Shown: positions 8,107 to 17,518 of the stretch, in pieces
Numbering within the stretch: the stretch's first letter is position 1
Layout of the letters: each line of letters starts with the position of its first letter
IMG/VR virus record: IMGVR_UViG_3300034092_001898
Coordinates: 1-64,000 of that record
DNA from: a virus
Length of the DNA stretch: 64,000 nt
Reading direction: 5' to 3' (one strand)
Program-made: the position numbers and the translations under genes
Notes under the pieces: generated by a model
The model's input: only the letters and a program-made list of their open reading frames with translations
Told to the model about the DNA's origin: nothing
Databases searched by the model: none

Positions 8107-8313
8107 ATGTTCCCGGAAATCCTTACTGAAACCCTGGCCACACTGCTACGATTCGACCCTAACGGCGACTGGCACCTTCCCAGTGTGCCCGATAGCGACG
8201 CCACAATAACAGATTGGGAAGTTTTCTATGAAGAATTAGCGAGCCTAGCGGCTGCAGCGGAAGACGCCATGGCGAGAATCAGATTCGTTGCGAAACGTAA
8301 CCAGCAACCATAG
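8107..8313 (+). CDS. hypothetical protein, 68 aa
   Basis: I choose ATG 8107, preceded by a pyrimidine run like its neighbours; ATG 8056 is an in-frame alternative adding 17 residues. The product is acidic and helical (WEVFYEELASLAAAAEDAMAR). No family recognised. Confidence 0.45.
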   Translation: MFPEILTETLATLLRFDPNGDWHLPSVPDSDATITDWEVFYEELASLAAAAEDAMARIRFVAKRNQQP

Positions 8314-8323
8314 CGCAGTAACG

Positions 8324-8362
8324 GGCTCCCCAGGGAGCCTGCATGTAGGGCTACCCCCTTTT
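8324..8362 (+). terminator. two consecutive hairpins, possible terminator
   Basis: GGCTCC-ccag-GGAGCC (8324-8339 area), then GTAG-gg-CTAC followed by CCCCTTTT. Placement after the gene at 8107 and before a new promoter suggests termination, though the T run is short. Confidence 0.4.
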
Positions 8363-8439
8363 AGAAGCGGCGTCATTTTTCATGCGAAATTAGCGGGATG
8401 GGAACCATGGCAAAGCATTGATGAGGAGCGCTTAGGCTG

Positions 8440-8513: not shown

Positions 8514-8834
8514 ATGAATGGTGAACTAAAAGCGAAGTGGCTGGAGGCTTTAAGGAGCGGGTGGTATAAGCAAGGGCAAGGTCGTTTAAGGGACGAGAAC
8601 AATCAGTTTTGTTGTCTTGGTGTGTTGTGTGATGTTGGTGGGCTAGGAACATGGAGGATGGACCATGGAGGATACTCCTATGAGGTCAATGGCTGTAAGT
8701 CTTCTTTCCTGCTTCCTGCGCAAGATGCTACTATTGCCCGCCACACAGGCGATTTAATGATGTTGAATGATGGGTACCGCCTGTCATTCAAAGAAATTGC
8801 CGATTGGATTGAGGAGAACATCGAAGATAACTAA
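8514..8834 (+). CDS. CCLGVLCD-family protein 1, 106 aa
   Basis: ATG 8514 with ACTGGAGGACT upstream as Shine-Dalgarno. The family pattern is KWLEALRSGWYKQG, then FCCLGVLCDV, then a variable middle, then LSFKEIADWIEENI. It occurs in many phages and some bacteria; function unknown. Paralogues lie at 10457 and 10849 in this window. Confidence 0.65.
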   Translation: MNGELKAKWLEALRSGWYKQGQGRLRDENNQFCCLGVLCDVGGLGTWRMDHGGYSYEVNGCKSSFLLPAQDATIARHTGDLMMLNDGYRLSFKEIADWIEENIEDN

Positions 8835-8873
8835 TTCTTAACCACTATTCATTTCCCCCATTGTTTTTTGATC

Positions 8874-9116
8874 ATGAGCGCATTGTATTCTGAAAGCACA
8901 TTGTTGATTAGTTTTCCTGGTGAGGAGCAAGGAATTGCGTTGCCTTGCATTGAAATGGAGATTAAGCCCCATGTGGAAATGCGAGGCGTTATTCAAAGTG
9001 AGGGAGTAGGTCGTATTGAAGTAGAGCTAAAGATTAAGACGAATAACCATGAGCTATTGTCAGCATTGTCCTATGACAACACAGCAGTTGCGATTTGCAT
9101 AGGTAGGAAAGACTAG
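8874..9116 (+). CDS. hypothetical beta-rich protein, 80 aa
   Basis: ATG 8874, preceded by a T-rich leader (the TTG at 8868 is less likely). Alternating hydrophobic strands (LLISFPGEEQGIALPCIEMEI, RIEVELKIKT) suggest a small all-beta protein. No family recognised. Confidence 0.5.
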   Translation: MSALYSESTLLISFPGEEQGIALPCIEMEIKPHVEMRGVIQSEGVGRIEVELKIKTNNHELLSALSYDNTAVAICIGRKD

Positions 9117-9129
9117 CTTTACATAGGCG

Positions 9130-9198
9130 GGAAAGAGGCCCAATAGTCAGAGCCCATAAGGGCGATAGTTACAGGGCCTCCTTTCCAGGGGGCTTTTT
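9130..9198 (+). promoter_or_regulatory. candidate attenuator: exclusive long stem versus terminator
   Basis: Terminator form: GCCTCC (9176-9181) pairs with GGGGGC (9188-9193), then TTTTT. Alternative form: 9130-9141 pairs with 9174-9186 in 12 bp with one bulged C, enclosing a GCCC-ataa-GGGC hairpin (9152-9163). The two forms share 9176-9181 and cannot coexist. This is the architecture of an attenuator or riboswitch expression platform, although the long upstream stem would form first and favour read-through. No ligand or leader peptide is visible. Confidence 0.45.
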
Positions 9199-9292
9199 AT
9201 TGTCGTTTTGCCTTTAACTGTACTTTCCTCCATTGTGCCTTTGCTTACTTTTAGAGAACCTTCGCCTCCCATAGCCTCTTGCCCATTGATTC

Positions 9293-9829
9293 TGTATCAA
9301 GCGATACATTTGCTAGTCGGGGCCACACTACGCCCTTGGTATAGGAGCGTCCTTTGATTGATTTTCTGAATAGAAGCCTTTAAGCGGGAGCCCGTCTAAG
9401 CCCTTGAGGGGCCTGGCTGATGCTCCCGCTTGCTGAATAATTGAAAGGGAGCTTGTTGAGAGGAAAGCCCATTGCTGTTCGCCCTTGAGGGGCTCTGGCC
9501 GATAGGGCTTTCCAGCAGAGGCTTCTTAAGCCAGAGGGGCCTGAGAGGGAACTTGAAGGAGCGGAGCTAAGGATAAAGCCCCCTTGAGGGGGCTCAGGCC
9601 AAAAGCTCCTCAGGCAGACACTGAACCTGCTTCAGTGTCGGAACCATGTCGGTTCCCTCTCTTAAGCATAAATCGTTAGGCAAGCCCTCTTTATGTTTGC
9701 TTAAGCATTAAAAAGCTAGTGGTAGCAAGGAATGTCAAGGAAATGACCAGAAAACGAGGGCTTGGAGCAGCCTAAAATTGCAGTATTTCTTAACAATTGC
9801 AGGCAATGGGCTAGGAGGCTTGACAAGCC
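9293..9829 (+). ncRNA. candidate large structured RNA with three repeated modules
   Basis: No credible ORF lies in 9117-9872. Hairpins are dense: TGTATC/GATACA (9293-9308); module 1, 10-bp stem 9382-9391/9422-9431; module 2, 9-bp stem 9462-9470/9505-9513; module 3, 6-bp stem 9563-9568/9604-9609. Each module encloses a GCCCTTGAGGGGC-type inner hairpin, then CTGG or CAGG and a purine run. A 10-bp stem (9543-9552/9652-9661) encloses module 3 and a 9-bp hairpin (9617-9639). More hairpins lie at 9661-9705 and 9817-9829. RNA function, ends and strand are inferred. Confidence 0.55.
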
Positions 9830-9872
9830 AGGTACTTAGCCTTACCGTAGTGGAGCCACCGTTTCGAGCCCC

Positions 9873-10043
9873 ATGGGCAAAAAGAACCTAGTTGTGCTCT
9901 TGGCCATGCTTGTGCTATCAGCACTAACAATTATCTCCCTATTTGCTCTATGCTCTATGGATATGCAACAGCGTTTCATCCTGAAATGCACCACTGAACT
10001 TGGCAGTAACAACATTGAACTTTGCTCTTCCATCGCCAAATGA
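9873..10043 (+). CDS. 56-aa membrane-anchored peptide
   Basis: ATG 9873, stop 10041-10043. MGKKN is followed by a single hydrophobic helix (VVLLAMLVLSALTIISLFAL) and a polar tail with three cysteines, so it is either an N-terminally anchored membrane protein or carries an uncleaved signal. It overlaps the next gene by ATGA, which supports translation. No Shine-Dalgarno is seen; the start follows the structured-RNA block. Confidence 0.5.
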   Translation: MGKKNLVVLLAMLVLSALTIISLFALCSMDMQQRFILKCTTELGSNNIELCSSIAK

Positions 10044-10294
10044 TTAGCGTTCCCGTGACTCCTGAAATGCCCACCAGTTCCCCTCTCCGCTTTGAGGATT
10101 GGTTTAACATTGCTAATTGCGCCACTCAGCGTTTCTCCATGGCTCTCTTTGATGATCAAAACTTTGATCGTGCAATGGGCGAAGCTGAATCAATGAGCCA
10201 TGCCACTTGTCGTGCTTTTGACGAAGCCTTTTCCGAATTGACCATGATGAATGTCCTGGCTGCCCTGGCTAATGCGGAGGCTGATAATGATTGA
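10040..10294 (+). CDS. hypothetical helical protein, 84 aa
   Basis: Start ATG 10040 by ATGA overlap. Mostly helical, acidic (FDDQNFDRAMGEAESMSH, FDEAFSELTMMNVLAALANAEA). No family recognised. It overlaps the next gene by 8 bases. Confidence 0.5.
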   Translation: MISVPVTPEMPTSSPLRFEDWFNIANCATQRFSMALFDDQNFDRAMGEAESMSHATCRAFDEAFSELTMMNVLAALANAEADND

Positions 10295-10472
10295 GTTTTA
10301 CACCATTGGCTTCTGGGGGACTGCGCTCACGCTTGTGCGGCCCAATCGGGCAAATAGCGTGAAGGAATGGACAATGGCCTTTGCTGGGGGCTTGCTTTGG
10401 CCCATCGTCTTGCCTTATTCTTGGACTCGACACATCATTCGTATCTGGAGGAAATCATGGAAAAGGCGCTGA
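10287..10472 (+). CDS. small membrane protein, 61 aa
   Basis: ATG 10287. A hydrophobic N-terminus and a second segment (WTMAFAGGLLWPIVLPYSW) are followed by a strongly basic tail (RIWRKSWKRR), which fits positive-inside anchoring. Function unknown. Its end overlaps the start of the next gene by 16 bases. Confidence 0.5.
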   Translation: MIEFYTIGFWGTALTLVRPNRANSVKEWTMAFAGGLLWPIVLPYSWTRHIIRIWRKSWKRR

Positions 10473-10852
10473 AGGAGAAGTGGCTTGAGGCTTTGAGGAG
10501 CGGGCAGTATAAGCAGACCATAGGAGTGCTAAAGATGCAATCCGAAAACGGAGATTGCCGTTACTGCTGCCTAGGTGTGCTGTGTGATGTTAGTGGCGAA
10601 GGTGAATGGGTAGAGGGTGAATGGATAGAGGGTGAATGGATAGAGAGTCCACTGCCAGATGCCTGGTTTTGTGAGTTTGGGTACACGTTCGTGGACGCCA
10701 CAATGACAGGTGCTCTATCTCCAGAGTTCAGGAAAAGGCATGGAATACCTCTCAAGACACGGGATCTGTTAATCGGAATGAACGACAACAAAGGCATGTC
10801 ATTTAAGGAAATAGCCGATTGGATTGAAACCAACATCAAAGAGGAAGCATGA
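10457..10852 (+). CDS. CCLGVLCD-family protein 2, 131 aa
   Basis: ATG 10457 with GGAGG six bases upstream. It shares KEKWLEALRSGQYKQ, YCCLGVLCDV and MSFKEIADWIETNI with its paralogues. A family-specific insertion at residues 49-63 is three tandem copies of GEW(V/I)E, encoded by 15-bp repeats at 10601-10645. ATGA overlap with the third paralogue. Confidence 0.65.
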   Translation: MEKALKEKWLEALRSGQYKQTIGVLKMQSENGDCRYCCLGVLCDVSGEGEWVEGEWIEGEWIESPLPDAWFCEFGYTFVDATMTGALSPEFRKRHGIPLKTRDLLIGMNDNKGMSFKEIADWIETNIKEEA

Positions 10853-11235
10853 ACTTTTTTCCCGATTCCATGGAAACACAACCTATGGACCCTGCAATCA
10901 AAGAGCAATGGACAAAAGCCCTGAGGAGTGGTGAATACAAGCAAGGCAAGCGAAGGCTTAATACATTGACACTCCCCGAGGGCACTGTTTATTGCTGTCT
11001 CGGCGTCTTATGTGACTTGCACAATAAAACAACTGGAGAGGGACAGTGGAGTGATTCCATTGAGAAAATGGTAGGCCACATGGTACGCCAATACGATTGT
11101 GAACGCAATTACCTCCCCGATTCTGTGCAAAGCTGGGCTCAACTGTCCTGCGTAGCGGAAATGGCTTTATCTGAGGCCAATGATGATGGGGCTGATTTTT
11201 CTGCCATTGCCAATTGGATTGAGGAGCACTTGTGA
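10849..11235 (+). CDS. CCLGVLCD-family protein 3, 128 aa
   Basis: It starts by ATGA overlap; ATG 10870 is an alternative that would remove a divergent leader. Family motifs: KEQWTKALRSGEYKQG, YCCLGVLCDL, and the closing FSAIANWIEEHL. Unlike paralogues 1 and 2 the central part is longer and contains a predicted helix. Function unknown. Confidence 0.65.
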   Translation: MNFFPDSMETQPMDPAIKEQWTKALRSGEYKQGKRRLNTLTLPEGTVYCCLGVLCDLHNKTTGEGQWSDSIEKMVGHMVRQYDCERNYLPDSVQSWAQLSCVAEMALSEANDDGADFSAIANWIEEHL

Positions 11236-15832: not shown

Positions 15833-16203
15833 CCTACCCCTTGATCACCGTTGCCATGCAGGTTCGCGGCAAGGGTCGGCGCAACGTGAGAATCACGCCT
15901 TGTTGGGCCGGTGAGGGCCTCGCTGTCCATAAGTCTGTGACCCTCGACGGCAACGACAATCCCGTGTTCGTTGACATCGGCCCTAACATCTGGACCCTAA
16001 CCCACGTTCACACAGGCATGAGGGCGGGAATGTTTCACGGCAACGTCGATCAAGCAATAGCTTTCGCCCGTCAATGGGATCAGGCGTTTGCTGCAGTGAC
16101 CACCACCGAGGTTCCGCAACTGCTGGCCCGAAACTATCGGGAGGCGCTCTGCCAGGCGCAAGATGAACCCAGCGTGGCGGACATTTTTGAGTCGGGAGTC
16201 TGA
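15829..16203 (+). CDS. hypothetical protein, 124 aa
   Basis: ATGA overlap. Beta-rich N-terminus (LITVAMQVRGKGRRNVRIT) with a TLTHVHTGMRAG segment and a helical C-terminus. A second partner in the alanine-repeat unit; no family recognised. Confidence 0.5.
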   Translation: MTYPLITVAMQVRGKGRRNVRITPCWAGEGLAVHKSVTLDGNDNPVFVDIGPNIWTLTHVHTGMRAGMFHGNVDQAIAFARQWDQAFAAVTTTEVPQLLARNYREALCQAQDEPSVADIFESGV

Positions 16204-16954: not shown

Positions 16955-17468
16955 TACACATTTCGGCCACGCCAAAGCCTGCTCTTTCCTGGACGCCAAT
17001 GGCAACAAGACACGACCATGGGATACCGCAGAGGCCATGGATGAGGCAATGGTAGAACGGTGGAATGCAGTTGTCAAACCGCAAGACACTGTGTATCACC
17101 TAGGCGATGTTGCAATTCCGCGAAAGTCACTTCAGATCCTTGGTCGTCTTAATGGCAAGAAAGCATTGATCCGGGGAAACCACGACATTTTCAATCTTTC
17201 CGACTACACCGCTTTCTTTTATGAGGTTCGGGGAGCCTTCGTAAACAAGGATCACTACCTATTCTCCCATATTCCTTGCCATCGTGGCTCAGTAGAGCGG
17301 TATCGTGGCAACATTCATGGCCACCTGCATACAGGACGAATTACACTACCTGACGGCACCATTGATCCGCTTTACTATTCGGTGTGCGTGGAGCACACTA
17401 ATTTCACGCCAATCGCCTGGGAAGTAGTGAAGGCCGAAATGGAATCCCTCCAGTCAGATTTGAACTGA
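16932..17468 (+). CDS. calcineurin-like metallophosphoesterase, 178 aa
   Basis: All metal-binding blocks of the MPE family are present in order: SDTHFGH (residues 7-13), HLGDVA, RGNHD, FSHIPCH and HGHLH. A dinuclear-metal hydrolase of phosphoesters; the subfamily resembles small phage and bacterial phosphoesterases whose substrates are unknown. Possible roles are nucleotide or RNA-end processing. The last 24 bases overlap an antisense tRNA gene. Confidence 0.85.
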   Translation: MTLFLISDTHFGHAKACSFLDANGNKTRPWDTAEAMDEAMVERWNAVVKPQDTVYHLGDVAIPRKSLQILGRLNGKKALIRGNHDIFNLSDYTAFFYEVRGAFVNKDHYLFSHIPCHRGSVERYRGNIHGHLHTGRITLPDGTIDPLYYSVCVEHTNFTPIAWEVVKAEMESLQSDLN

Positions 17469-17518
17469 CACTATGCGCCTTTTAAGGGCGCTGCCTCTTC
17501 CGGTTGGGCTATGGAGGG
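17445..17518 (-). tRNA. tRNA with anticodon UAA (Leu codon UUA), short variable loop
   Basis: Read on the minus strand from 17518: acceptor CCCTCCA/TGGAGGG, D arm GCCCAACCGGAAGAGGC, anticodon arm GCGCC-CTTAAAA-GGCGC, variable loop ATAGT, T arm GTCAG-TTCAAAT-CTGAC, discriminator A; 74 nt, no encoded CCA. Anticodon TAA reads UUA. Bacterial leucine tRNAs normally have a long variable arm; this one has 5 nt, so its charging identity is uncertain. The 3' half lies antisense to the end of the phosphoesterase gene. Confidence 0.85.

Follow-up and report, generated by a model that had tools for sequence, protein, structure and literature searches.

Strand-polar two-stem hairpins upstream of the ribonucleotide reductase gene as a candidate replication origin in freshwater cyanosiphoviruses

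The replication origins of environmental tailed phages are, to our knowledge, rarely known. Among large phage RNAs, those of the GOLLD and ROOL classes are abundant transcripts which form homo-oligomeric nanocages and are often found near tRNA islands, while the origins of IncQ plasmids carry iterons. The oriV of the IncQ plasmid RSF1010 possesses ssiA and ssiB, hairpins of approximately 40 nt, one per strand, which are initiation sites for the plasmid's own primase (PMC4434180). For pRN1, which has its own primase-helicase, a stem-loop origin has been proposed whose structure is conserved despite low sequence conservation, and an origin of this type has also been proposed for phage BIP-1 (PMC4234260). 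DUF3854 is a domain of CyRepA, the Rep proteins of cyanobacterial plasmids (PMC10079941).

Genomic setting of the block

The window, the whole stretch of DNA analysed here, comprises 64,000 nucleotides of a 77,245-bp IMG/VR virus record. By its RNR (ribonucleotide reductase, 66%) and terminase (62%), the closest annotated phage is the Synechococcus siphovirus S-CBS4. The block under study (9117-9872) is situated upstream of the RNR gene, as are its counterparts in many freshwater cyanobacterial viruses. An earlier note, made from the sequence alone, had described it as encoding no plausible protein, and it contains no ORF of at least 60 aa, the largest being of 41 and 49 aa; a coding reading was ruled out, as single-base indels relative to the homologous contig L002 disrupt every frame. 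The block stops, as the same note stated, just before a small gene, a 56-aa ORF beginning at 9873, of which a recognisable homologue is also present behind the L002 block. Gene direction is mostly the same on both sides of the block. Three paralogues of the uncharacterised small phage protein phrog_18067 (8514-8834, 10457-10852 and 10849-11235) surround the block.

The block of L002 is a 77%-identical homologue with nearly all stems kept. Alignment of the two shows the block to be a real conserved element, albeit in two pieces and not of the single extent first drawn, these being a conserved island (9282-9865) and a separate conserved hairpin (9132-9198), with diverged sequence between and beyond them. 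There is also a second intergenic stretch (8313-8389, corresponding to L002 401-477; GGGCTACCCCCTTTTAGAAGCGGCGTCATTTTTCAT...) which is 95% identical between the two contigs and adjoins the GC-skew minimum of the window (8210); its last ~27 nt are present twice in L002.

A two-stem module on both strands

The stems which the earlier note had described are real, but the repeated unit they belong to is a module occurring on the minus strand too, which is invisible to the eye on one strand. This module is approximately 50 nt in length, possessing an outer stem of 7-12 bp with free sequence, an unpaired 5′ strand, an inner hairpin GC(n)C-UUGRG-GGC and a 3′ strand which ends near CUCGUA, after which the outer stem closes.

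The first copy, module D (9132-9183), is inverted, lying on the minus strand with the outer stem GAGGCCC/GGGCCTC and the inner hairpin GCCC-TTAT-GGGC. With the second of two covariance models (CM R2) it scores 37.0 bits (E-value 2.7e-7) on the minus strand versus 10.0 bits on the plus strand, and 46 nt of it are identical in L002. A T-run follows it on the plus strand; a riboswitch with a terminator overlapping the stem was considered and dropped, since conservation showed D to be a module of the minus strand. Another candidate hairpin, also conserved (AGTGCGYACTGTCCGAACG...GAGGACACT), lies upstream of module D in four contigs (L015, L159, L167, L194). The spacer between D and the direct copies (9184-9380) is T/C-rich immediately after D (purines 0.33), diverged at 9201-9280 and conserved from 9282.

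On the plus strand, module A (9381-9432) is a weaker direct copy, detected by a descriptor scan and as direct repeat D1, with a perfect outer stem of 10 bp (9382-9391/9422-9431), the inner hairpin GCCC-TTGAG-GGGC and the 3′ strand CTGGCTGAT; it is assigned by resemblance, since its score lies under the CM threshold. Module B (9462-9513) has the outer stem GGAAAGCCC/GGGCTTTCC, with a perfect 9-bp stem at 9462-9470/9505-9513, the same inner hairpin (GCCC-TTGAG-GGGC) and the 3′ strand CTGGCCGATA, scoring 31.2 bits with CM R2 (E-value 1.1e-5) on the plus strand versus 9.5 bits on the minus strand. After module B the consensus fold of window and L002 has a plus-strand stem (9519-9542) in which the pair 9524/9537 changes from U-G to C-G, and a hairpin resembling this stem is present in several relatives. 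The perfect 10-bp stem 9543-9552/9652-9661, kept in L002 with a G-C to G-U change at 9545/9661, does surround, as claimed, further structure on the plus strand (9543-9661), namely module C and two more hairpins. Module C (~9554-9612, plus strand) has a 7-bp inner stem AGCCCCC/GGGGGCT and is of divergent form in the window lineage, CM R2 picking up its inner hairpin only (E-value 2.8); relatives have clear C copies. Two adjacent perfect plus-strand hairpins (9617-9639, with the 9-bp stem 9617-9625/9631-9639, and 9640-9657) are identical in L002, with a DNA fold z of -6.2. The 3′ part of the conserved island (9661-9865, plus strand) is ~75-80% identical in L002 and of weaker structure.

With 79 further cyanophage contigs gathered via RNR alignment, a search with the block profile found weak but syntenic relatives in the same orientation, 1-2 kb upstream of RNR. 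A first covariance model, seeded with four module copies, yielded 27 matches across 1.23 Mb of cyanophage loci, all within this block, and recovered non-seed minus-strand copies in L051, L070, L046, L044 and L002, the window copy being marginal; CM R2 gave 43 matches in the same 1.23 Mb, nearly all in this block. Fifteen more contigs came from scanning viral contigs for a pattern; three of them have a single detected module, a D-like inner hairpin without outer stem being seen by eye in these. Twenty-six contigs (18 clusters at 90% identity) carry the complete element, which adjoins RNR wherever the contig extends that far. Its order is the same in 26/26, namely one minus-strand D, a spacer of 103-282 nt and then one to three plus-strand copies, which counts in favour of an origin.

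Outside these contigs, blastn of the block against annotated phages returned one chance match and with the blocks of two relatives none. Exact patterns from the 5′ conserved part found only L002 and the near-identical contig L003, the remainder being chance, and a pattern scan of genome contigs gave four matches, none of which is a module by CM. In S-CBS4, the nearest isolate, no block was detectable upstream of RNR and there was no significant CM match, which counts against an origin. S-CBS4 does have a minus-strand hairpin with a GCCCC-TTGGG-GGGC core (L025 ~16060-16160, S-CBS4 ~61.06-61.16 kb), ~0.45 kb downstream of its primase-helicase gene, which is module-like by eye only, with no CM match. 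Six other contigs (L027, L033, L035, L037, L038, L043) possess, 0.6-1.5 kb upstream of RNR, simple palindromes and different two-level hairpins whose UUGAG/UUUGG loops are similar to those of the module; these may represent an analogous element in a sister group.

Folding, covariation and the case for a transcript

The single-sequence fold of the block gave z values of -3.1 (plus strand) and -4.6 (minus strand) against only 20 shuffles per strand. The window/L002 consensus fold of 9270-9868, scored against column-shuffled alignments, gave -6.4 and -6.3 respectively, and that of 9520-9665 gave -7.5 on the plus strand, while the flanks (9201-9275 and 9880-10030) had no folding signal in this fold. 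Its pairs comprise 145 unchanged, 16 with one-sided changes, five with double changes and none broken, counted with a fold optimised on the same two sequences.

Clear compensatory changes are seen in homologues, the opposite of what the earlier note would have taken as refutation. The outer stem of the module has a covariation score of 0.575 versus 0.210±0.018 in shuffles, with 102 cells changed on both sides versus four on one side, and 98.3% of cells are paired versus at most 51.5% in slid controls; in newly fetched contigs the score is 0.526 versus 0.182±0.019. The size of this effect is inflated, because the structure guided the alignments and a good many copies are related to one another, yet the slid controls still collapse. 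Within one genome B, C and D have outer stems of different sequence, so that what is conserved is a fold rather than a binding site in duplex DNA. G-U pairs make up 4/396 (1.0%) of the pairs in module stems versus 52/830 (6.3%) in 40 tRNAs encoded at these loci (Fisher p 7e-6), and this scarcity of G-U intermediates favours DNA over RNA, if not conclusively. Against an origin, many of the window/L002 changes outside the modules are one-sided and of the G-U type (16 versus 5 double in the whole fold), which gives an RNA-like look.

The earlier note likened the block to a large ornate phage RNA recalling GOLLD and ROOL, which it does resemble in size range, phage setting and ornate fold; that it is non-coding, large, strongly structured and conserved stands, but an RNA of the GOLLD/ROOL kind is unsupported. 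Rfam, searched over the window at gathering threshold, gave chance matches only, with no match to GOLLD or ROOL, and over 8800-10050 at E≤10 neither these nor any other family rose above noise. The only tRNA in the window, a tRNA-Leu (17445-17518), is 7.6 kb from the block, which thus lacks a nearby tRNA island, and the architecture is odd for a single transcript, in that one module copy invariably sits on the other strand, extra copies elsewhere run antisense to the adjacent genes and the covarying stem is nearly free of G-U.

A large structured non-coding RNA of a new cyanophage class, transcribed from the plus strand (~9275-9868) with module D as terminator of the upstream gene, would be consistent with a non-coding island conserved at the level of structure, its ROOL-like size, the one-sided G-U type changes, the T-run after D and the detection of D as terminator-like. 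However, D is conserved as a minus-strand module (37 versus 10 bits) and not as a plus-strand hairpin, the minus-strand fold scores equal those of the plus strand, further minus-strand modules are antisense to operons, the module stems are nearly without G-U and the short spacer has no consistent promoter, so that we consider such an RNA unlikely. The folded units are oppositely directed on the two DNA strands, and therefore a start of replication is more likely than a large RNA.

A candidate bidirectional origin

On the structure, the polarity, the low G-U content, the partial agreement with GC skew and the precedents for hairpin origins, we lean, if only slightly, towards the block being a replication origin of an S-CBS4-like cyanosiphovirus group, with strand-polar hairpins that would act in single-stranded DNA, in preference to an RNA, divergent leaders or another polar DNA site. 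Three larger contigs (G001, G002 and G004) have extra modules 11-15 kb left of the block. Relative to RNR, all of these are on the minus strand, and they lie in gaps beside oppositely running genes, downstream of the primase-helicase gene by 0.3-2.2 kb (2.2 kb in G004), a location not shared by the main block. Minus copies are thus found to the left of the spacer and plus copies to its right, the pattern expected for lagging-strand-template sites of forks leaving the spacer, although among a few weak module matches (E-values 0.1-1.3) this polarity rule is not always obeyed.

The cumulative GC-skew minimum of the whole contig lies 17 bp from the spacer midpoint in G001 (73 kb, rotated on the assumption of circular permutation) and 25 bp from it in G002 (60 kb), and within 520 bp in 10/18 clusters. 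With the block masked the minimum is still within ~1 kb in 8/14 loci, part of the sharp minimum being the block's own composition. As genes are mostly co-directional on both sides, transcription does not account for the skew flip. Several features count against an origin: the skew minimum of the window is at 8210, ~1.1 kb left of the block, with further disagreement in L002, L046, L063 and others; no initiator binding site was identified; the window's modules A and C are of divergent form; and the window has no TGAGAC repeats or iterons. TGAGAC/GTCTCA repeats do cluster in the block of seven relatives, partly ~11 bp apart and iteron-like. They are seen in the spacer and after module C in L032, L036, L055, L059, L067 and others.

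Two other readings bear on the same features. In all 26 contigs the purine fraction does not exceed 0.45 over the 40 nt that follow D and is 0.55 or more over the 40 nt preceding B, which counts for an origin; the symmetrical layout of purine tracts and modules on either side of the spacer would also suit divergent leaders or regulatory elements, with a promoter pair in the spacer and RNAs running both ways, each a purine-rich leader with the module as protein-binding hairpin. No promoter pair was found, G-U is low and a leftward RNA would be antisense, because most genes to the left of D are directed at the block, and we regard this arrangement as very unlikely. Hairpins for recombination, packaging or genome processing (Chi-like or cruciform-dependent) would likewise fit the strand polarity and strict Watson-Crick covariation, which suit any single-stranded or cruciform function, and the phage's Sak annealing protein and exonuclease, but appear very unlikely given copies that are few and concentrated in one intergenic place, terminase genes kilobases distant and, in several genomes, a position coinciding with the skew minimum.

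Besides Sak and the exonuclease, the phage encodes a primase-helicase with DUF3854 and AAA_25 domains, to which no solved structure was matched; no DNA polymerase was found in the subset of ORFs scanned. Like RSF1010, the block has hairpins of one family on both strands (26/26 contigs), with a putative role in initiation. It differs in having one minus and one to three plus copies, a two-level stem and, in the window, no iterons. The RSF1010 primase is of RepB' type (archaeo-eukaryotic); that of the phage is DUF3854/Toprim-like, matching DUF3854 and AAA_25. The second-site modules downstream of the primase-helicase gene are reminiscent of pRN1; in contrast, the main block lies 13-17 kb away from the gene and contains, in place of a single large stem-loop, several polar modules. 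With CyRepA replicons the phage shares a replication protein with a DUF3854 domain, the difference being that its helicase domain match is AAA_25.

If the block is an origin, the duplex would open in the spacer, and rightward forks would expose the plus strand and leftward forks the minus strand as lagging-strand template. The conserved form would then be carried by B and C (and A) on the exposed plus strand and by D on the exposed minus strand, and the hairpins may be loading or priming sites for the DUF3854/AAA_25 primase-helicase or a host primosome, such that both forks are primed. More tentatively, an undescribed family of strand-polar two-stem DNA hairpins may mark and prime a bidirectional origin in widespread freshwater cyanosiphoviruses, possibly with further fork-facing copies along the genome. 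If the block is indeed an origin, sequence alone would yield a testable origin across an entire group of uncultured cyanophages and a candidate element recognised by CyRepA-like primase-helicases, and would allow fork polarity to be predicted. A further caution is that a covarying intergenic phage structure is not in itself proof of RNA, and that orientation and G-U content can indicate DNA.
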